NCBI RefSeq assembly: GCF_947305105.1
Contig: NZ_CAMZCS010000007.1
Location: 1 to 64,000, forward strand
Length of the DNA stretch: 64,000 nt
Direction of reading: 5' to 3'
DNA from: an uncultured Fibrobacter sp.
GTDB taxonomy: Bacteria; Fibrobacterota; Fibrobacteria; Fibrobacterales; Fibrobacteraceae
The notes under the pieces were generated by a model. The model was not told where the DNA came from. It worked only from the letters and a program-made list of their open reading frames with translations, and ran no database searches. Numbering within the stretch: the first letter of the stretch is position 1; each line of letters opens with the position of its first letter. A program made the position numbers and the translations under genes. Shown here piece after piece: positions 7,052 to 27,803 of the stretch.

Positions 7052-7063
7052 ACCACACAATAA

Positions 7064-7095
7064 AACAACGGGCCAAGGTGAACTGGCCCGTTGTT
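7064..7095 (-). terminator. Terminator of the FISUMP operon (possibly bidirectional)
   Basis: AACAACGGGCCA and TGGCCCGTTGTT form a perfect 12-bp stem with an 8-base loop. On the minus strand it is followed by TTATTG after a short T-tract; on the plus strand TTGGAATTGTTTT follows. It sits between the convergent rarA and the first FISUMP gene and can serve both. Confidence 0.85.
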
Positions 7096-7117
7096 GGAAT
7101 TGTTTTAGGTGCAGATA

Positions 7118-8851
7118 TTAGTTCTTGTCCTTGATGCAGCGGACAGGGAAACCAAGATCAACACTATTAGCATTGTCTGAATAGCTTTCATTGTTATAAA
7201 TGACGTAATGCGCATCATTTCGGCTTATCTGTTGTTCTGTTCTTGGGGAGGAAGTCCAGAACAAAGCAGCCTTCATGCCGTCGGATTTAACCTCTGTTTG
7301 AGAAACATCCATCATATACGACGACTGCATCAACGAAAAACCATATTCATCCGTCCCAGCAGGACTCCAACCATAATTCACTTTTAATTTCAGAATCCTC
7401 TGGCCATCATCAACAGCATTATTTAACGCCGCAAATTCAGCCATTGTCGGCAAACGCCAACCATCAGGGCAGTAACTCATAGCAGCTGGCCATGTGTAGA
7501 AACGACCAATACTGTCACAGTCGATACAAGCAGACTCGTCCGCGCCCGTTCCCGCATAGTTCAAATTCTGAGCCATCCAGGTCTCGGAGTAGATAACATT
7601 TCCGGAATCACCCTTTACAGTAATCTCAGTGAACTTGTAGGGCTGACCGTCACGCGTGTCGCAGAACTGATTGCGGATATCATACAATGAATTTGGATGA
7701 CCTTCGCACCATTTATCGTTCTGTCCTTCCTTAACGCAGCAGGCGATACTAGATTCAATCTGGCCATCGACGCACCTCTGGGTCTTAGTCTCGTACGTCT
7801 GGCCACCGCACTTCGCAACGACCTGATGTTTCTCTTCACTCTTATCGCAGAACTGGAGATCCGGATCGTACGGGCTTCCAGCACACTTTTCATAAAGGAC
7901 ACCCTTCTCGCTGCAGAAGTAAATCATACCGTCATACGAGCCATCTTCTTTGAGGACGTTTTCAGCCAGGCCCTCGGCAATACTGCTGCAACGGCTGTAG
8001 ATTGAACGATTGGAGCAGAACTGCGTCGTGTAATCGTATGGTGAGGTAACGCACAACGAAACAAGGAGGTCCGACGAATCGCAGAAATACCCCTGCACGT
8101 TGTAAGTGCCATCAGGATTGAGATACGGTTCAAGCCCTCCAAGCGCTTTGTGACAGAGCGGGTAGACCTTCTTGTCGTTCGAGCAGAACTGGGTCGCCGG
8201 GTCATAAGTGGCGACACCGCACGAGGCCTTGAACAGCGTCACGGATTCTTCGCCACACTTCACGACGATTTGACCATTTTCGCCTTCCGTAAGCGTGCAG
8301 TCATCGCCGTCTTCACCATCTTCACCGTTCTTGATGGTGCCAACGGTTTTTCCACCGCAAAGAATATCGAATCCGGTCTTGTCCTTGTTGGCCTTGGCGG
8401 AGCAACTCGTGCCGTTTTCACCATCGGCACCCTTTTCGCCCTTTTCGCCCTCTTTACCATCCTCGCCATTCTTGACAGTACCGACGGTCTTGCCATCGCA
8501 AACGATATCAAAGCCGGTCTTGTCCTTGGTCTGTTTGGCAGTGCAGCTTGCGCCATCATCGCCGGCAGCGCCATTGGCGCCCTTGTCGCCCTTGTCGCCC
8601 CTTTCACCGTCTTTACCGTTCATACGGGTCCAACCGTCACCGGTACAGACATACACTTTCGCAGAATCCTTCACGTACATGACCGAGCCTTCGGTCTCTT
8701 CTTCGCACTTCGGGAGTTCCTTGAATTTCTTGACGGTATCAAGAGATACCATTTCGCTCACATTGGTCACTTCGGTGACTTCATCACCGCACGCAACCAA
8801 TAATGCGAAGCTGGCAGCAATACCTGATGCTACAATTACATTCTTTTTCAT
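7118..8851 (-). CDS. FISUMP-domain lipoprotein 1 with collagen-like stalk
   Basis: Predicted surface or periplasmic lipoprotein, 577 aa, last gene of a four-member array. The signal peptide ends in a LVAC lipobox (Cys21). Gly-X-Y runs at about 79-100, 129-147 and 175-184 alternate with modules of the form SCTAKxxKDKTGF(D)I.C.GKTVGT. Next come about five Cys modules of the form C...YDxxxQFC, and a C-terminal FISUMP domain (about 410-577) with WMAQNLNYA and SYCPDGWRLPT. The function of FISUMP domains is unknown; the build suggests a rod holding a small C-terminal domain away from the membrane. Its first 200 residues are nearly identical to lipoprotein 3, with 407 bp of uninterrupted DNA identity (8352-8758). 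Confidence 0.9.
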   Translation of the reverse strand: MKKNVIVASGIAASFALLVACGDEVTEVTNVSEMVSLDTVKKFKELPKCEEETEGSVMYVKDSAKVYVCTGDGWTRMNGKDGERGDKGDKGANGAAGDDGASCTAKQTKDKTGFDIVCDGKTVGTVKNGEDGKEGEKGEKGADGENGTSCSAKANKDKTGFDILCGGKTVGTIKNGEDGEDGDDCTLTEGENGQIVVKCGEESVTLFKASCGVATYDPATQFCSNDKKVYPLCHKALGGLEPYLNPDGTYNVQGYFCDSSDLLVSLCVTSPYDYTTQFCSNRSIYSRCSSIAEGLAENVLKEDGSYDGMIYFCSEKGVLYEKCAGSPYDPDLQFCDKSEEKHQVVAKCGGQTYETKTQRCVDGQIESSIACCVKEGQNDKWCEGHPNSLYDIRNQFCDTRDGQPYKFTEITVKGDSGNVIYSETWMAQNLNYAGTGADESACIDCDSIGRFYTWPAAMSYCPDGWRLPTMAEFAALNNAVDDGQRILKLKVNYGWSPAGTDEYGFSLMQSSYMMDVSQTEVKSDGMKAALFWTSSPRTEQQISRNDAHYVIYNNESYSDNANSVDLGFPVRCIKDKN

Positions 8852-8874
8852 GTTTTATAATTCAACCTATGAAA

Positions 8875-10614
8875 TTATTCGGCATTTCTCTTGATGCAGC
8901 GGACAAACATATATTGAGTCTTCGCCGTAATGCCTGTGTAATGCACACGGCCACGGACGCTGGCGCCATCAACATAGAAACGGTTCGCAGAAACAGATTC
9001 TAGTTCACCCTCCTGAGGAGCGCGTTCTGTTTTAGACCAATAATAAGCACTACTGGTGCTTGTAAAACTAGTCCCGTCATAAATGCCGCCCGAAGTTGGA
9101 GAAGAGAAGCCGCTTGTATTCGAACCACCTACACGATAATCTGTGGCGTATGAGCCAAAAGCATTCATCAAAGCACGATAGTCAGCATTTTCTGGCAAAT
9201 CCCAGCCTTCCGGGCAGTAACTGTTCGCTGCGAGCCATGTATAGTAACATCCATACGTTAAGCACTTATCATCGTTAGAGATAGTCACATGTTCGCCTTC
9301 CTGCGTTTTTGTGTATTTCAAATTTTCCGTCATCCAGGTCTCGGAATAAACAACTTCACCATTTCCATTTGCCTTAGTAATCGTCTTGAACTCGTAGGGG
9401 TGACCATCGCGCGTATCGCAGAACTGCTTGCGGACATCGTATAAAGAATTTGGATGGCCGTCGCACCATTTGTTGTTCTGTCCTTTGGGAATGCAGCAGG
9501 CGATAGCTTCTTCAACTTGGCCATCGACGCACATATGGGTTTCAAGGACATACGTCTGTTCACCACACTTTGTAACGACCTGGGGTTTTTCTGGATCAGT
9601 TGTTCTGTCGCAGAACTGAAGATCCGGGTCATACGGACTTCCACTACATTTTTCATAAAGGACTCCCTTCTCGCTGCAGAAGTAATCCGAACTGTTATAC
9701 TGACCTTCATCGTCGATGAGGTCTTCAGACAAGCCTTCGGCAACACTGCTGCAACGACTGTAGATTGAAGCACGGGAGCAGAACTGCGTCGTGTAATCGT
9801 ATGGTACGGTAACGCACAACGAAACAAGAAGGTCCGACGCATCGCAGAAATACCCCTGCACGTTGTAAGTGCCATCAGGATTGAGATACGGTTCAAGCCC
9901 GGCAAGCGTATTATGACAGAGCGGGTAGACCTTCATGTCGTTCGCACAGAACTGGGTCGCCGGATCATAAGAACCGACACCGCACGAAGCCTTGAACAAC
10001 GTCGCAGATTCTTCACCGCACTTCACGACGACTTGGCCATTTTCAATTTCCGTAAGCGAGCAATCGTCACCATCCTTGCCATTTTCACCGTTCTTGATGG
10101 TACCTACGGTCTTGCCGTCGCATACGAGGTCGAAACCGGTCTTGTCCTTGGTCTGCTTGGCGGTGCAGCTCGTACCGTTTTCGCCATCTTCGCCCTTGTC
10201 GCCCTGGGCACCCTTTTTACCATCCTCGCCATTTTCACCATTCTTAATGGTGCCCACGGTCTTGTCACCGCAAACGATGTCAAAGCCGGTCTTGTCCTTG
10301 GTCTGTTTGGCAGTGCAGCTCGTACCCTTATCACCGGCAGCACCCTTGTCGCCTTTTTCGCCCTTTTCACCAACGGCGCCATCAAAACTTTCCCAGCCAT
10401 CGCCAGTGCAGACAAACACCTTGGCGGAATCCTTTACGTACATGAGGGAGCCTTCGATATCTTCCTCGCACTTCGGGAGTTCCTTGAATTTCTTGACCTG
10501 GTCAAGCGAAGCCTTTTCGGTCACGTTAGTCACTTCGGTGACTTCGTCGCCACAAGCAACCAAAAGGGCCAAGCTAGCGGCAATGCCTGATGCTACAATT
10601 ACATTCTTTTTCAT
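8875..10614 (-). CDS. FISUMP-domain lipoprotein 2 with collagen-like stalk
   Basis: 579-residue paralogue with the same plan: lipoprotein signal (LVAC, Cys21), two full stalk modules with Gly-X-Y runs, Cys modules of the C...YDxxxQFC type, and a FISUMP C-terminus with WMTENLKY and SYCPEGWDLPE. The ATG at 10614 is preferred over an in-frame ATG 21 bp upstream because AAAAAGGA lies about 11 bases before it. The middle of the protein is closest to lipoprotein 1 (YLNPDGTYNVQGYFCD and following), whereas the C-terminal 130 residues are its own. The stop is 23 bp before gene 1, so the two are co-transcribed. Function is unknown beyond family. Confidence 0.9.
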   Translation of the reverse strand: MKKNVIVASGIAASLALLVACGDEVTEVTNVTEKASLDQVKKFKELPKCEEDIEGSLMYVKDSAKVFVCTGDGWESFDGAVGEKGEKGDKGAAGDKGTSCTAKQTKDKTGFDIVCGDKTVGTIKNGENGEDGKKGAQGDKGEDGENGTSCTAKQTKDKTGFDLVCDGKTVGTIKNGENGKDGDDCSLTEIENGQVVVKCGEESATLFKASCGVGSYDPATQFCANDMKVYPLCHNTLAGLEPYLNPDGTYNVQGYFCDASDLLVSLCVTVPYDYTTQFCSRASIYSRCSSVAEGLSEDLIDDEGQYNSSDYFCSEKGVLYEKCSGSPYDPDLQFCDRTTDPEKPQVVTKCGEQTYVLETHMCVDGQVEEAIACCIPKGQNNKWCDGHPNSLYDVRKQFCDTRDGHPYEFKTITKANGNGEVVYSETWMTENLKYTKTQEGEHVTISNDDKCLTYGCYYTWLAANSYCPEGWDLPENADYRALMNAFGSYATDYRVGGSNTSGFSSPTSGGIYDGTSFTSTSSAYYWSKTERAPQEGELESVSANRFYVDGASVRGRVHYTGITAKTQYMFVRCIKRNAE

Positions 10615-10659
10615 AGGAATTATTCCTTTTTTCATATTATAAATTTTTGGGTGTACATG

Positions 10660-12342
10660 CTATTTGTGTTTGATACAAATAACAGATTCAAGATTTACCT
10701 TATTATTAGTACCTATATTATTGAACCTACTATCCCTTATGGATACACGCCATGCTTCATCAGTATAAGTCGTATCTCCATCAGCCGTCCATAACAACGA
10801 ACTTCTCCCGCGACTAGCCCAACCATCTCTTACTCCCTTGTAGCCTGCTTTTTGGTCAAGGAAGCTATAGCTAATCCCATATTTATTAACAGCATCAAAC
10901 AAAACAGTATATTGCTGCTTTGTAGGCAAGTCCCAACCATCCGGGCAATAGCTTAAAGCAGCATTCCAAGTATAAAGACGGCCATCGGCATCACAGTTAG
11001 AAGAAATGCCGCCATAACAATCAGACTCACCTTCTTCCGTATTTGCATAGTTCAAGTTCTCAGCCATCCAGGTTTCGGAGTAAACAACGTTCCCGGAATC
11101 ATTTTTTGCGATGACATCAACATACTTGTAAGGACGGCCATCGCGCGTGTCGCAGAACTGCTTGCGGATATCGTAGCGTGAACTTGCATGACCGTTACAC
11201 CAGTTGCTGTTCTGTCCTTCGGGGATGCAGCAGGCGATAGCTTCTTTAATCTGGCCATCGACGCACATATGAGTCTCAAGTTCGTACGATTGACCGGAGC
11301 ACAATGCAACGACCCTCGGTTTAGTTCCACTCGAATCGCAGTACTGAAGTTCCGTATCGTACGTGTCATCCCCGCAAAGGGCAACGAGCGAGTCATTCGC
11401 ATCACAGAAATAACTAGTTCTGGTATAGACCCCATCCTCACTAAGTTGACCAAGGCCTTCGGGTTCCTTGTGACAACGTGGTTCGGCCCCAAAGTCGTCA
11501 CCAGCACAGAACTGAGTCGTGAAGTCATAGGTTTTTGCATTGCACAAAGGCACAAGGAGGTCCGTCACATCGCAGAAATAGGATTCCACGTCATAGGTAC
11601 CATCGGCATTAAGGCTTTGTTCAAAGCCTTCCAATGCTTTGTGGCAGAGCGGGTAGACATTCATGTCGTTCGCGCAGAACTGGGTCGCCGGATCATAAGA
11701 ACCGGTACCGCAAGAGGCCTTGAACAGCGTCACGGATTCTTCGCCACACTTCACGACGACTTGGCCATTTTCGTCTTCCGTAAGCGTGCAGGCATCACCA
11801 TCTTCACCATCTTCACCGTTCTTGATGGTGCCAACGGTTTTGCCACCGCAAAGAATATCGAATCCGGTCTTGTCCTTGTTGGCCTTGGCGGAGCAACTCG
11901 TGCCGTTTTCACCATCGGCACCCTTTTCGCCCTTTTCGCCCTCTTTACCATCCTCGCCATTCTTGACAGTACCGACGGTCTTGCCATCGCAAACGATATC
12001 AAAGCCGGTCTTGTCCTTGGTCTGTTTGGCAGTGCAGCTTGCGCCATCATCGCCGGCAGCGCCATTGGCGCCCTTGTCGCCCTTGTCGCCCCTTTCACCG
12101 TCTTTACCGTTCATACGGGTCCAACCGTCACCGGTACAGACATACACTTTCGCAGAATCCTTCACGTACATGACCGAGCCTTCGGTCTCTTCTTCGCACT
12201 TCGGGAGTTCCTTGAATTTCTTGACGGTATCAAGAGATACCATTTCGCTTACATTGGTCACTTCGGTGACTTCATCACCGCACGCAACCAATAATGCGAA
12301 GCTAGCGGCAATACCTGATGCTACAATTACATTCTTCTTCAT
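10660..12342 (-). CDS. FISUMP-domain lipoprotein 3, mosaic of its neighbours
   Basis: 560-residue paralogue. The signal and stalk (residues 1-about 200) match lipoprotein 1 almost exactly, while the Cys-module part and the first half of the FISUMP domain match lipoprotein 4: DNA 10920-11622 is identical to 12645-13347. The last 75 residues, after SYCPDGWDLPT, are specific. The lipobox is LVAC, and the Cys modules include YDPATQFC, YDFTTQFC, YDTELQYC and YDIRKQFC. The 45-bp gap to gene 2 and the matching 3' flanks of genes 3 and 4 point to past duplication. It is intact, with no frameshift. Confidence 0.9.
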   Translation of the reverse strand: MKKNVIVASGIAASFALLVACGDEVTEVTNVSEMVSLDTVKKFKELPKCEEETEGSVMYVKDSAKVYVCTGDGWTRMNGKDGERGDKGDKGANGAAGDDGASCTAKQTKDKTGFDIVCDGKTVGTVKNGEDGKEGEKGEKGADGENGTSCSAKANKDKTGFDILCGGKTVGTIKNGEDGEDGDACTLTEDENGQVVVKCGEESVTLFKASCGTGSYDPATQFCANDMNVYPLCHKALEGFEQSLNADGTYDVESYFCDVTDLLVPLCNAKTYDFTTQFCAGDDFGAEPRCHKEPEGLGQLSEDGVYTRTSYFCDANDSLVALCGDDTYDTELQYCDSSGTKPRVVALCSGQSYELETHMCVDGQIKEAIACCIPEGQNSNWCNGHASSRYDIRKQFCDTRDGRPYKYVDVIAKNDSGNVVYSETWMAENLNYANTEEGESDCYGGISSNCDADGRLYTWNAALSYCPDGWDLPTKQQYTVLFDAVNKYGISYSFLDQKAGYKGVRDGWASRGRSSLLWTADGDTTYTDEAWRVSIRDSRFNNIGTNNKVNLESVICIKHK

Positions 12343-12387
12343 GGGAATTATCTTCTTCTCATATTATAAAGTTTTGGGGTATAGATG

Positions 12388-14076
12388 CTATTTGTGTTTG
12401 ATACAAATAACAGATTTAAAATGGTCCTTTAGATTAGTACTCGTATTACGGTATTCATCACCCGAGAAGTATATACGATATGCTTTATCTGCTTCTTCCT
12501 TACTTTCTTCAGACGTCCACATCATTGAAGCTCTTCCTCTACCAGTCCAACCAGCTGATGCTATGTATCCTGCTTTTTGGGCAAGGAAGCTATAGCTAAT
12601 TCCATATTTCTCACCAGCCTTAAACAAAGCAGCATATTGCTGAGTTGTAGGCAAGTCCCAACCATCCGGGCAATAGCTTAAAGCAGCATTCCAAGTATAA
12701 AGACGGCCATCGGCATCACAGTTAGAAGAAATGCCGCCATAACAATCAGACTCACCTTCTTCCGTATTTGCATAGTTCAAGTTCTCAGCCATCCAGGTTT
12801 CGGAGTAAACAACGTTCCCGGAATCATTTTTTGCGATGACATCAACATACTTGTAAGGACGGCCATCGCGCGTGTCGCAGAACTGCTTGCGGATATCGTA
12901 GCGTGAACTTGCATGACCGTTACACCAGTTGCTGTTCTGTCCTTCGGGGATGCAGCAGGCGATAGCTTCTTTAATCTGGCCATCGACGCACATATGAGTC
13001 TCAAGTTCGTACGATTGACCGGAGCACAATGCAACGACCCTCGGTTTAGTTCCACTCGAATCGCAGTACTGAAGTTCCGTATCGTACGTGTCATCCCCGC
13101 AAAGGGCAACGAGCGAGTCATTCGCATCACAGAAATAACTAGTTCTGGTATAGACCCCATCCTCACTAAGTTGACCAAGGCCTTCGGGTTCCTTGTGACA
13201 ACGTGGTTCGGCCCCAAAGTCGTCACCAGCACAGAACTGAGTCGTGAAGTCATAGGTTTTTGCATTGCACAAAGGCACAAGGAGGTCCGTCACATCGCAG
13301 AAATAGGATTCCACGTCATAGGTACCATCGGCATTAAGGCTTTGTTCGAAACCTTCCAATGCTTTGTGGCAGAGCGGGTAGACATTCAGGTCGAACGCAC
13401 AGAACTGGGTCGCCGGGTCGTAAGAACCAGTACCGCAAGAGGCCTTGAACTGCGTTACAAACTTTTCACCACAGGTTACAACGACCTGGCCATTTTCGCC
13501 TTCCGTAAGCGTGCAGCCTTCACCGGCTTCACCTTTTTCTCCGTTCTTGATGGTTCCTACGGACTTGCCATCGCAAGTAATCTCAAATCCGGTCTTGTCC
13601 TTGTTGGCCTTGGCAGTGCAACCTGTACCGTTTTCGCCATCTTCGCCCTTGTCGCCCTGGGCACCCTTTTTGCCATCCTCGCCATCTTCACCATTCTTGA
13701 CAGTTCCTACAGTCTTGCCAGCGCAAACGATATCAAAACCGGTCTTGTCCTTGGTCTGCTTGGCAGTGCAGCTCGTGCCGCTATCGCCATCGGCACCCTT
13801 GGCACCCTTGTCGCCCTTGGCACCTTTGTCGCCATCCTTACCATTGACCTGAATCCAGCCGTCGCTGGAGCAACCGTACACCTTTGCGGAATCTTTCACG
13901 TATATGAGAGTGCCTTCAATATCTTCTTCGCACTTCGGGAGTTCCTTGAATTTCTTGACAGTGTCGACAGAAGCGTTCTCACTCACATTGGTCACCTTGG
14001 TGACTTCGTCGCTGCAAGCAACCATAAGTGCTAGGCCCGCAACAAAACCAGATGTAACAAGTATGCTTTTTCTCAT
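12388..14076 (-). CDS. FISUMP-domain lipoprotein 4, promoter-proximal
   Basis: 562-residue paralogue and first gene of the array. The signal peptide ends in LMVAC. The stalk is more diverged (GDKGAKGDKGAKGADGDSG and a GEKGEAGEG run), but the central Cys-rich half is identical at DNA level to lipoprotein 3 over 703 bp. The FISUMP tip has WMAENLNYA and SYCPDGWDLPT, then a variable tail ending SVICIKHK as in gene 3. AAAGGA lies about 9 bases before the ATG. The 189-bp AT-rich upstream gap is the likely promoter region for the whole array. Confidence 0.9.
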   Translation of the reverse strand: MRKSILVTSGFVAGLALMVACSDEVTKVTNVSENASVDTVKKFKELPKCEEDIEGTLIYVKDSAKVYGCSSDGWIQVNGKDGDKGAKGDKGAKGADGDSGTSCTAKQTKDKTGFDIVCAGKTVGTVKNGEDGEDGKKGAQGDKGEDGENGTGCTAKANKDKTGFEITCDGKSVGTIKNGEKGEAGEGCTLTEGENGQVVVTCGEKFVTQFKASCGTGSYDPATQFCAFDLNVYPLCHKALEGFEQSLNADGTYDVESYFCDVTDLLVPLCNAKTYDFTTQFCAGDDFGAEPRCHKEPEGLGQLSEDGVYTRTSYFCDANDSLVALCGDDTYDTELQYCDSSGTKPRVVALCSGQSYELETHMCVDGQIKEAIACCIPEGQNSNWCNGHASSRYDIRKQFCDTRDGRPYKYVDVIAKNDSGNVVYSETWMAENLNYANTEEGESDCYGGISSNCDADGRLYTWNAALSYCPDGWDLPTTQQYAALFKAGEKYGISYSFLAQKAGYIASAGWTGRGRASMMWTSEESKEEADKAYRIYFSGDEYRNTSTNLKDHFKSVICIKHK

Positions 14077-14265
14077 AGAGAGTTCCTTTTTTTATTCATA
14101 AAAAAAATGTATCAATTTTGTATCCAAATGTATGTTTTTTTTAAACATCTGTAAAACGATTACCTTTATGTTACAATTAATTTACATTGCATGTAGGGTT
14201 AATCAGGCTTTCGTTCGCCAAAATTTAAAAAAAAACCAATTTCTTGTTGATTTCGGCAGTAACAG

Positions 14266-24731: not shown

Positions 24732-26189
24732 TTAGTTCTCGCAACCGGCACTCGGATTCGTCCAGCCGTTTTCCGGGGGAGCCTCGCCCGCCTTCCAGCA
24801 ATGGAGCGTATCGAGCACGTCGCCTTCCTTGAATGTGGACCAGTCCGTCACCTTCTTGTAGTTGTTTTCCAGAGTAGTGTTGAATCGGGTCATGTAATGG
24901 TCAATCAAGTACTGCGGGCATTCCACTTCCTCGATGTAGTAGGTCGGATTGTCCGCAGCCATGTACCAGTCGGCAAACCAGTGGCAACCGCGCAAAAGAT
25001 TCGGGAGGCCACCGTCAGCGAAAGCCGCGTCGCACATGTCCTTCACGCACGTCTGGTAACATTCCAAGGAGCCCTCGGTGCCGCAGTTCGTGTTTTTCTG
25101 GCATTCCGTAAGGAACCCGCCAAAGCCCGCGCCCCAGTTAAAGCCGGCACCCTTGTTCACCTGGGTAGAGAGAGCGTCAAAGGCGCCCACGCCACCGCCC
25201 GGGACCATCAAGTCAAACTGGCCCGCAGGCAACTTGGCGTCACCACCCGCCACATCGTTACCGATATTGGAGGCCATCACCACCAGGTGTTTTCCCTTGA
25301 GCGCCTTATGGGTCGCCTTGGGCGGGTTATTCTCGAACTCATCCTTAAAGTGACCGTCGTACTGCAAGTGATAGCACTTGCCGCACTTGCTATCGGCAGT
25401 TCCCGCAACGTATGCATAAGAAAGGGTGTCGTTCACGGCAATAGGCGCCATGTCGGTGCAGGTGAACACGCCCTTTTCCTTTTCGTCGCCGCAAGCGCTT
25501 CTGGTCCCGTTGTAACCGAACCAGGACTTCGTCACATCCCCCAGGGTAAAGGTGGGGACTTCAACATCGTGAATGTTGCAGTTACGCGCAGTGGCAAAGT
25601 CGGCAAGGTACGCCTCGTTGGAAGACGTGTCCGCACGGGTTATATCGTTAGCGCTTTCCCTAAGCCAGGAGCAGTGCGGCTTGCAGGCGTCCCAGTAGCG
25701 GGTATTCCAGCCGCGTTTTGCCGTAGCGCTGATGTCCTTGGTGTATTCGGCCGGAGGCGGGCCATAAGATTCAAGAGTCGGGAATCCGCTCGCGTCGAGT
25801 TCCGGTTCCGTATTCACGGAACTGCTGGAGCTTCCAGGAACCACATTGGTACTGGAACCCGGAACGACAGAGCCGCTGGAGCCAAGAGCTGCGCTGCTGG
25901 ATGTCGGGTTGTTCGGATTTTGATTGATGCCACCGGCACTAGAGGCCGGATTATCCGGATTCTGGTTGTTGCTGCCAAAGCTAGAACTCGAATTGTTCGG
26001 GTTATTCAGATTGCCCGCATCGCTGGAGCCAATCATTCCGGACGAAGAATTCGGGTTATCAATGACGCCTGCACCCGGGTCATTGCCCATCGGATCAGTG
26101 GCTTTGTTCGAAGTTGCATCGTCGCCGCAAGCGCAAATCATGGCGACCGCACCGGCCGCAACTATCGACTTGAACAATTTACGTTTCAT
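24732..26189 (-). CDS. GH45 endoglucanase lipoprotein, downstream copy
   Basis: Endo-beta-1,4-glucanase of glycoside hydrolase family 45, 485 aa. Lipoprotein signal with CAC at residues 19-21 (Cys21), a Ser/Asn/Pro-rich linker (about 22-130), then the catalytic domain with the family signature TRYWDACKPHCSW at 163-175 (nucleophile-side Asp167) and QFDLMVPGGGVGAF carrying the expected second catalytic Asp. Many Cys residues suggest a disulfide-rich fold exposed outside the inner membrane. The lipid anchor suggests retention on the cell surface rather than release. It starts 9 bp after the upstream GH45 gene and ACGAGGTTTT precedes its ATG. Confidence 0.92.
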   Translation of the reverse strand: MKRKLFKSIVAAGAVAMICACGDDATSNKATDPMGNDPGAGVIDNPNSSSGMIGSSDAGNLNNPNNSSSSFGSNNQNPDNPASSAGGINQNPNNPTSSSAALGSSGSVVPGSSTNVVPGSSSSSVNTEPELDASGFPTLESYGPPPAEYTKDISATAKRGWNTRYWDACKPHCSWLRESANDITRADTSSNEAYLADFATARNCNIHDVEVPTFTLGDVTKSWFGYNGTRSACGDEKEKGVFTCTDMAPIAVNDTLSYAYVAGTADSKCGKCYHLQYDGHFKDEFENNPPKATHKALKGKHLVVMASNIGNDVAGGDAKLPAGQFDLMVPGGGVGAFDALSTQVNKGAGFNWGAGFGGFLTECQKNTNCGTEGSLECYQTCVKDMCDAAFADGGLPNLLRGCHWFADWYMAADNPTYYIEEVECPQYLIDHYMTRFNTTLENNYKKVTDWSTFKEGDVLDTLHCWKAGEAPPENGWTNPSAGCEN

Positions 26190-26198
26190 AAAACCTCG

Positions 26199-27803
26199 TT
26201 ACGGAGCGCAGCCAGCACCCTTGCCGTTGGGGTCTTTCGGATTTTCGCCGTCCTTCCAGCAATAGACCGTATCGAGCACGTCGCCCTTCTTGTAATCAGA
26301 CCAGTCGTCATGCCAACGCCAACGGTTTTCCAAAGTCGTATTGAAGGTCGTCAAGTAGTGGTCGACCAAGTACTGCGGGCATTCCACCTCTTCCCAGTTG
26401 TATGTCGGGTTGTCGGCGGTCATGTACCACTCGGCATACCAGCGGCAGCCGCGCAACAGGTTCGGCCAGTCCTTGAACACTTCGTCGCACTTCTTGAGCA
26501 CACATTCCTGGTAGGCTTCCACAGTATTGTCCCAACCGAGGCTCTGCTGGCATTCGGTCATGAATCCGCCACCGTTTGCACCGAGACCACTTGCGGGCAC
26601 GCCAATCTGCGTAGAGAGCGCGTTGAATGCGCCCACACCACCGCCCGGCACGAGCATGTCGTACTGGCCCGCTTCCACATCGTAACCGATGTTGGAGGCC
26701 ATCACGACCATGTGCTTGCCCTTGAGCGCCAAATGCGTTTCCTTCACGTCGTTCGCATGGTTGCCACCATTGAACTGCAAGTGGAAGCACTTGCCGCAAC
26801 CACCGCCAAACTGCGCACCCGGAGCAGCGACATAACCATAAGAAAGATTATCTGTCACCTGAATCGGAGCCATGTCGGTACAAGTGTAAGTGCCACCAGC
26901 GTTATTGTTAACACAAGCACTATTCGTGCCCTCGTACCCCATCCAGTATTCCTGAACAGAATGGCCAAGCGTAAATGCAGGAACTTCCACATCGTGAATA
27001 TTGCAGTTACGGGCGACCGTCCCACCCGCCTCGTACGCGGCCTCGCTCGTAGTATCGACGCTGCTGAGCCAAGAACAGTGCGGCTTGCAAGCATCCCAAT
27101 AGCGGCTGCTCCATCCAGTCTTTCCGTTGCTCAAAATGTCCTTTGTATAAGCCTCGGGAGGCGGGCCATAAGATTCAAGAGTCGGGAACCCGTTCGCATC
27201 ACGGGGAACATCGCTAGAGGAGGATTCCGCAGGAATGCCGCTCGAACTCGAAGCAGTCGGATTCGAAGGGCCCTGCGGATTGCCCGAAGAGCTGGAATTT
27301 GTAGGATTGCCGCTAGAATTGGCCGGATTGTTGCTGGAACTAGATGCACCGACAACGCCCGAACTTCCATTCACGGGATTGGAACCGGAAGTCGGCTGCG
27401 AAGTATTGGCCGGATCAGCAGAAGAGGAGCTTTCCACGACCAGTTCACCCGAAAGCGGGTCGTACACGGCATTCGCCTCACAAACCGGGAGCAAGGTCGT
27501 CTGCACGCCAGTTTCGTAAACGGAGCCATCACCCAACGTGATTGTACCGTCGACTTCAGTATATATGCCGAAATTTTGTCCGTCCGCAGTCCTGACAATA
27601 TTGTCCGTACTGCCGATGAAAAGCTTCACCTCATCCTTGATGAACACACGGGACGAGACAGGAATCACGGCACCTTGGCAAATAAAATCGCTCGTGTTGC
27701 CCTGCTGACCACCGTTCGGCGAAGATTCGGATTCATCGGTACATGCCGAGACCAGCGCTAACGTGGCCACGGCAGCCGTCATCCTGAAACAAAACATCCT
27801 CAT
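26199..27803 (-). CDS. GH45 endoglucanase lipoprotein, upstream copy with extra N-terminal domain
   Basis: 534-residue paralogue of the downstream cellulase. The lipobox is VSAC (Cys21). An additional domain of about 100 residues (22-122, with SRVFIKDEVKLFIGSTDNIV and ITLGDGSVYETGV) precedes a Ser/Asn/Pro linker (about 124-200). The catalytic domain carries SRYWDACKPHCSW at 233-245 (Asp237) and QYDMLVPGGGVGAF. The linker boundary text FPTLESYGPPP is shared with the other copy, so they arose by duplication. The start at 27803 has AGGAG six bases before it; a second ATG lies two codons on. First gene of the pair. Confidence 0.92.
   Translation of the reverse strand: MRMFCFRMTAAVATLALVSACTDESESSPNGGQQGNTSDFICQGAVIPVSSRVFIKDEVKLFIGSTDNIVRTADGQNFGIYTEVDGTITLGDGSVYETGVQTTLLPVCEANAVYDPLSGELVVESSSSADPANTSQPTSGSNPVNGSSGVVGASSSSNNPANSSGNPTNSSSSGNPQGPSNPTASSSSGIPAESSSSDVPRDANGFPTLESYGPPPEAYTKDILSNGKTGWSSRYWDACKPHCSWLSSVDTTSEAAYEAGGTVARNCNIHDVEVPAFTLGHSVQEYWMGYEGTNSACVNNNAGGTYTCTDMAPIQVTDNLSYGYVAAPGAQFGGGCGKCFHLQFNGGNHANDVKETHLALKGKHMVVMASNIGYDVEAGQYDMLVPGGGVGAFNALSTQIGVPASGLGANGGGFMTECQQSLGWDNTVEAYQECVLKKCDEVFKDWPNLLRGCRWYAEWYMTADNPTYNWEEVECPQYLVDHYLTTFNTTLENRWRWHDDWSDYKKGDVLDTVYCWKDGENPKDPNGKGAGCAP

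Follow-up and report, generated by a model that had tools for sequence, protein, structure and literature searches.

Tandem paralogues are known to undergo gene conversion; the instance reported here is new. The process has been described, for example, in Mycobacterium tuberculosis (PMC12046097), where, as at the present locus, it is recognized by a long exact tract with abrupt ends, a mosaic recipient gene and trees that conflict from one segment to the next. Surface protein families can likewise be altered by recombination among homologous copies, as in the variation of the mgpC adhesin of Mycoplasma genitalium (PMC2169797; reviewed in PMC4534519). The family considered here, FISUMP or Fib_succ_major (TIGR02145, PF09603), is typically present in high copy number in the Fibrobacteres: their genomes carry 17-119 copies, C. 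alkaliphilus excepted (PMC4704652), and the Fibrobacter genome studied here (G000) has 122 matches. The role of FISUMP proteins is still guesswork, with cellulose binding or a function as cohesin analogues having been proposed (PMC4704652). Fib_succ_major is also a known target domain of diversity-generating retroelements (DGRs; PMC4159848, PMC8143477). Our literature search brought up no paper that was evidently about gene conversion in Fibrobacter, as judged by titles and word counts, and none that contained the word FISUMP.

Here we describe 703 bp of exact identity between two neighbouring FISUMP genes, g3 and g4. This identity is very probably the footprint of a recent g4 to g3 gene conversion within a four-gene array, with a second conversion, probably from g1, having supplied the stalk of g3.

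The FISUMP array and its two exact tracts

The window, meaning the whole 64,000-nucleotide stretch of G000 that was analysed, contains four FISUMP lipoprotein genes (g1-g4) in tandem, all on the minus strand. The array was compared with those of two sister species, each represented by one genome: G021 (L059), with the gene order a4-a2-a1, and G013 (L060), with the order b4-bX-b2. The genes a4 and b4 are the slot-4 orthologues of g4, and bX is the G013 gene in the g3 position. The features referred to below are as follows, in window coordinates.

12388-14076, minus strand: g4, FISUMP lipoprotein, array gene no. 1, donor of the 703-bp tract (ORF; TIGR02145 over cut-off; slot-4 orthologues a4 and b4)
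10660-12342, minus strand: g3, FISUMP lipoprotein, recipient; a mosaic with a stalk of g1 type, a middle of g4 type and a tip of its own
8875-10635, minus strand: g2, FISUMP lipoprotein that takes no part in the long tracts (ORF; TIGR02145)
7118-8851, minus strand: g1, FISUMP lipoprotein that probably donated the stalk tract
12645-13347, minus strand: 703-bp exact tract, g4 copy (donor; base comparison, sister comparison)
10920-11622, minus strand: 703-bp exact tract, g3 copy (recipient; base comparison, permutation, sister comparison)
11843-12249, minus strand: 407-bp exact tract, g3 copy, in the signal peptide/stalk region (string search, permutation)
8352-8758, minus strand: 407-bp exact tract, g1 copy (probable donor; string search, with the direction taken from the sisters)
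11623-11842, minus strand: g3 linker between both tracts, of mixed affinities and partly bX-like (site counts and tree)
10660-10919, minus strand: g3 C-terminal tip, unconverted (not in the slot-4 clade; bX-like codons next to the tract)
12388-12644, minus strand: g4 C-terminal tip, diverged between orthologues
7067-14186, minus strand: array unit with short flanks on both sides, aligning to the G021 array while the surrounding genes differ (blastn of L059 against window 7067-12326 and 11542-14186)

All four genes pass the curated TIGR02145 (FISUMP) cut-off of 41.65 bits, with scores of 116.5, 77.4, 85.9 and 83.0 bits for g1 to g4, respectively. In g3 and g4 the profile match is confined to positions 1-83 of 176, suggesting that the tip of these proteins has left the family consensus. 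An apparent lipobox (LLVACG or LMVACS, read by eye) is located near residue 20. Gly-X-Y runs are visible in the stalks, with PF01391 collagen scores of 20.8-24.5 that lie below the gathering score of 27.2. Elsewhere in the window, two tandem GH45-domain proteins (24732-26189 and 26199-27803) form diverged repeats without a long identical tract.

A preliminary description of this DNA had reported that positions 10920-11622 equal 12645-13347, that the identity stops abruptly at both ends, and that the flanking stalk and tip are diverged. Base-by-base comparison bears this out, with 703 of 703 bases identical and 0 further identical bases on either side, while codon-aligned g3 and g4 agree at 80% of the positions upstream (577/720) and at 73% in the tip (183/252). 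The coverage given there was also accurate: the tract takes in the Cys modules together with the first ~95 residues of the FISUMP region as modelled. Its edges are sharp, but the neighbouring sequence is still related, with 86-95% g3/g4 identity in the two adjoining 25-codon bins on the tip side. At the identity rate of the flanks, 703 consecutive matches would have a probability near 1e-75. The identity also held up in a GENECONV-type permutation test on the 703 polymorphic columns of g1-g4 (10,000 permutations, p floor 1e-4), in which the g3/g4 run comprised 300 concordant polymorphic sites against a permuted maximum, for any pair, of 38 (p = 1e-4). The absence of any difference in 703 bp places the divergence since the event at no more than 0.4% (95% upper bound).

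Purifying selection alone might be thought to preserve the identity of this segment, as the middle of the gene is conserved in the slot-4 orthologues (g4/a4 core pN 0.015). Those orthologues do, however, carry synonymous differences in the middle, and g3 and g4 are identical at 59 consecutive silent polymorphic codons. The permutation test restricted to silent codons (p = 1e-4 for this run) excludes such a reading, to which we attach a negligible probability.

An exhaustive shared-string search yielded a second exact tract, of 407 bp, which joins g1 (8352-8758) to g3 (11843-12249) and which the earlier description had overlooked. It forms a run of 118 polymorphic sites (p = 1e-4 by permutation), and within the first ~185 aligned codons g1 and g3 encode the same protein sequence and differ in only a few synonymous codons. 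Here the sequence common to g3 and g1 sides with a1 at 34 sites and with bX at 0, part of the stretch being non-discriminating. This makes g1 the probable donor, and g1 to g3 probably the direction of the stalk conversion.

Direction, timing and array dynamics from sister species

Comparison of the locus with that of the sister species gave different histories for the different parts of g3. The tract tree, (b4,(a4,(g4=g3))), nests g3 among the slot-4 genes; 148 tract sites join g3 to the slot-4 type, on which g4, a4 and b4 agree, against bX, and 0 do the opposite. The tip tree, (b4,(g4,a4)), leaves g3 out (support 86/90), with g3 and bX on an unresolved fork beside it. At the tip-side edge of the tract, g3 has bX-like codons at columns 484, 488, 494 (where bX agrees), 495 and 504. 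Judged by these affinities, the combination of a slot-4-type tract with a bX-like edge and a tip outside the slot-4 clade shows that g4 donated the 703-bp tract and g3 received it. The stalk tree groups g3 with g1 and so conflicts with both the tract and the tip trees, as conversion predicts. Site counts and trees together show g3 as a two-donor mosaic in which mainly the tip and a short linker would be original.

Identity by itself gives no direction, and on that ground alone g3 could have been the donor and g4 the recipient. The common sequence is nevertheless of slot-4 type (identities: a4 98%, b4 96%, bX 76%), which makes the reversed direction highly improbable. Four tract sites that are common to g3 and g4 alone suggest that the 703-bp conversion took place after the lineage had separated from G021.

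Alternatively, g3 could have arisen by tandem duplication of g4, later taking over a g1 stalk and acquiring a different tip by divergence or replacement. The adjacency of g3 and g4, their exactly shared middle and the lack of a gene between a4 and a2 in G021 would all fit such a history. A plain g4 duplicate, however, would show near-zero synonymous divergence in the tip, and the observed tip pS is 0.21, against zero differences in the tract, which argues for conversion and not duplication. In addition, the slot-4 clade excludes the g3 tip, and the edge codons are common to bX, which occupies the same array position in G013, while a g3-type spacer downstream of a4 (L059:10273-12006) suggests that slot 3 was lost in G021. 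The duplication history also needs more events, and we consider it improbable. The preliminary description had interpreted the identity as very recent gene conversion in preference to simple duplication; the trees and sites of the sister species support that interpretation, although it had named neither donor nor recipient and did not include the g1 tract.

The sister arrays contain further traces of recombination. In G013, b2 (L060:9779-11569) has g1-type codons at its 3' end, followed by g1-type downstream sequence. From their sequence, the ends of b2 and a4 look like scars left by deletion of slot 1 and slot 3, respectively, which may have occurred via recombination near the gene ends. Between-species synonymous divergence varies several-fold along single genes in g1/a1, g2/a2 and g4/a4, and this unevenness suggests that recombination has taken place between species too.

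The array (window 7067-14186) lies at a different chromosomal site from those of G021 and G013, its short flanks having moved along with it (L059, L060, L070). In both sister genomes it is found beside a putative oxaloacetate decarboxylase gene, identified by sequence reading, and the G000 region with the putative oxaloacetate decarboxylase gene has no similarity to the window array. In G000 the array sits between rarA and an htpX-like gene; beside htpX, the relatives carry distant FISUMP genes, ~36-52% identical, or none at all (window 7052-14265; L064, L065, L066, L067).

Among the FISUMP loci examined in G000, a tandem pair on contig C5 shares 1,235 bp exactly (L054:6778-8012 = 8372-9606). 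All 27 coding differences between these two genes fall within the last 310 bases, corresponding to the C-terminal tip, and 21 residues differ. Both the 1,235-bp and the 703-bp tract terminate no more than 14 codons from the CPDGW motif. The longest tract found in 259 kb of G013 FISUMP loci measures 104 bp, and the longest in 163 kb of G047 FISUMP loci 201 bp, the latter outside the motif-bearing ORFs. With no long tract found in these G013 and G047 loci, two cases make no rule, and draft assemblies may under-report such repeats. A 467-bp candidate tract on contig C14 was disregarded, as it is apparently one DNA stretch counted twice.

The main remaining doubt about the 703-bp tract is assembly error, in which an assembler or gap filling would have overwritten one repeat copy with the other and the identity would be absent from the cell. 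G000 is a draft of 72 contigs, and the lack of comparably long tracts in the G013 and G047 FISUMP loci also speaks for this explanation. Against it, both copies are located on a single contig, with different flanks on each side; the second tract links another gene pair; and g3 retains its bX-like edge sites. Copies that had diverged like bX and b4 (58-95% identity per window here) are not normally merged, and a consensus of nearly identical copies is possible, yet would still imply conversion. We therefore assign assembly error a small probability and retain conversion from g4 to g3 as our explanation.

Fold and variation of the C-terminal tip

AlphaFold gave a confident model of the FISUMP domain of g4 (pLDDT 92, pTM 0.87). 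By position, the tract would end at about model residue 96, at the start of a helix, so that the tip is predicted to consist of this helix and the C-terminal beta strands. Among the slot-4 orthologues the first 95 residues are near-invariant, the next ~78 are highly variable and the last few are constant. In a fold search with the g4 model, the best PDB match was the C-terminal domain of Legionella Lcl (8q4e), which is weak (E 0.012), and the further top PDB matches were mostly C-type lectins, every E value being above 0.001. Searching PDB sequences for relatives of the FISUMP domain gave no match. The model suggests that the FISUMP domain is C-type-lectin-like and that the tip forms the C-terminal sheet; as the fold matches are all weak, we treat this assignment as a lead. 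Since the scaffold is identical while the C-terminal half varies, this half is the likely ligand-binding face, and the tip the likely ligand-binding part of the protein.

Positive selection on the tips was not established, as pN/pS ranges from 0.74 to 1.74 by pair, around 1. A ratio of 1.50 (one-sided p = 0.04) was obtained from a pool of three pairs, g3/bX having been omitted after its value was known; with g3/bX included, the pooled value is about 1.2 by arithmetic. The differences between the g3 and g4 tips are strongly adenine-centred, with an A/G:C/T ratio of 29:3, compared with 42:52 elsewhere in the gene (p = 3e-6). The same trend is seen in the tips of g4/a4 and g4/b4 and is absent in g2/b2 and g3/bX. 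It could be either an old DGR imprint or the result of selection for polar residues.

A DGR acting on a FISUMP half-domain is present on contig C51 of G022, where a 195-bp template (L200:9047-9241) corresponds to a variable repeat (L200:7856-8050). Template adenines account for 18 of the 19 mismatches, and the template reads into the reverse transcriptase (RT) ORF. The variable repeat belongs to a 306-aa FISUMP protein whose start appears phage-tail-like by sequence reading, and an RT ORF similar to that of G022 occurs in L196 (G070). The action of this DGR on the C-terminal half-domain indicates that this half tolerates massive variation. An active DGR in G000 was rejected, with neither RT nor template found there: G000 has no PF00078 match, and the g4 tip DNA matches array genes only, other matches in that genome being 26 bases or shorter. 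In the sister genomes, G013 has a defence RT of the Drt8 type and G021 an unclassified one, and no template resembling the tip turned up in the vicinity of these two RTs. It is conceivable, if rather unlikely, that the array works as a two-speed display, in which conversion keeps anchor, stalk and scaffold identical while a DGR, either past or acting in trans, diversifies the tip in an adenine-directed manner, giving an operon of adhesins with the same body and different tips.

Proposed mechanism and comparison with known systems

In our proposed mechanism, non-reciprocal homologous recombination would have copied the Cys modules of g4, together with the N-terminal FISUMP half-domain, into g3, halting just beyond the CPDGW motif. 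As the conversion ended there, g3 would have retained its own C-terminal tip. A separate conversion, probably g1-derived, would have provided the g3 signal peptide and collagen-like stalk. The likely pathway is RecA-type recombination of tandem copies, perhaps with alleles from other cells; a g4 allele imported from another cell would leave the identical pattern. The tips may have been spared either because they were too different for recombination or because converted tips were selected against. We infer that a lipid-anchored stalk displays a C-type-lectin-like domain, whose C-terminal sheet would vary to bind different ligands, and that conversion may hold the scaffold uniform while the tips differ.

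The aspect most worth following is that an identical scaffold carries a variable tip, and pairs that combine one scaffold with two tips, such as g3/g4 and the two C5 genes, offer a direct test of the role of the tip. As parts of one FISUMP gene have different histories, whole-gene orthology and dating will mislead.

In DGRs acting on Fib_succ_major domains the same C-terminal half is variable as here, where the tip differences of slots 3 and 4 are adenine-centred; unlike those systems, G000 has no detected RT or template copy of the g4 tip. The architecture resembles that of the Legionella collagen-like adhesin Lcl (PMC11162425), with its collagen-like stalk and C-terminal binding domain, although the fold match to Lcl is weak and the present proteins have an apparent lipobox and Cys modules. 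In mgpC-type systems recombination varies the exposed part of the protein, whereas here the long tracts unify the scaffold and the tips stay different; neither an expression site nor silent cassettes of the mgpC kind were seen at this locus. Compared with conversion of the M. tuberculosis type, the array described here is distinguished by two donors to one recipient and by the sparing of the C-terminal tip.
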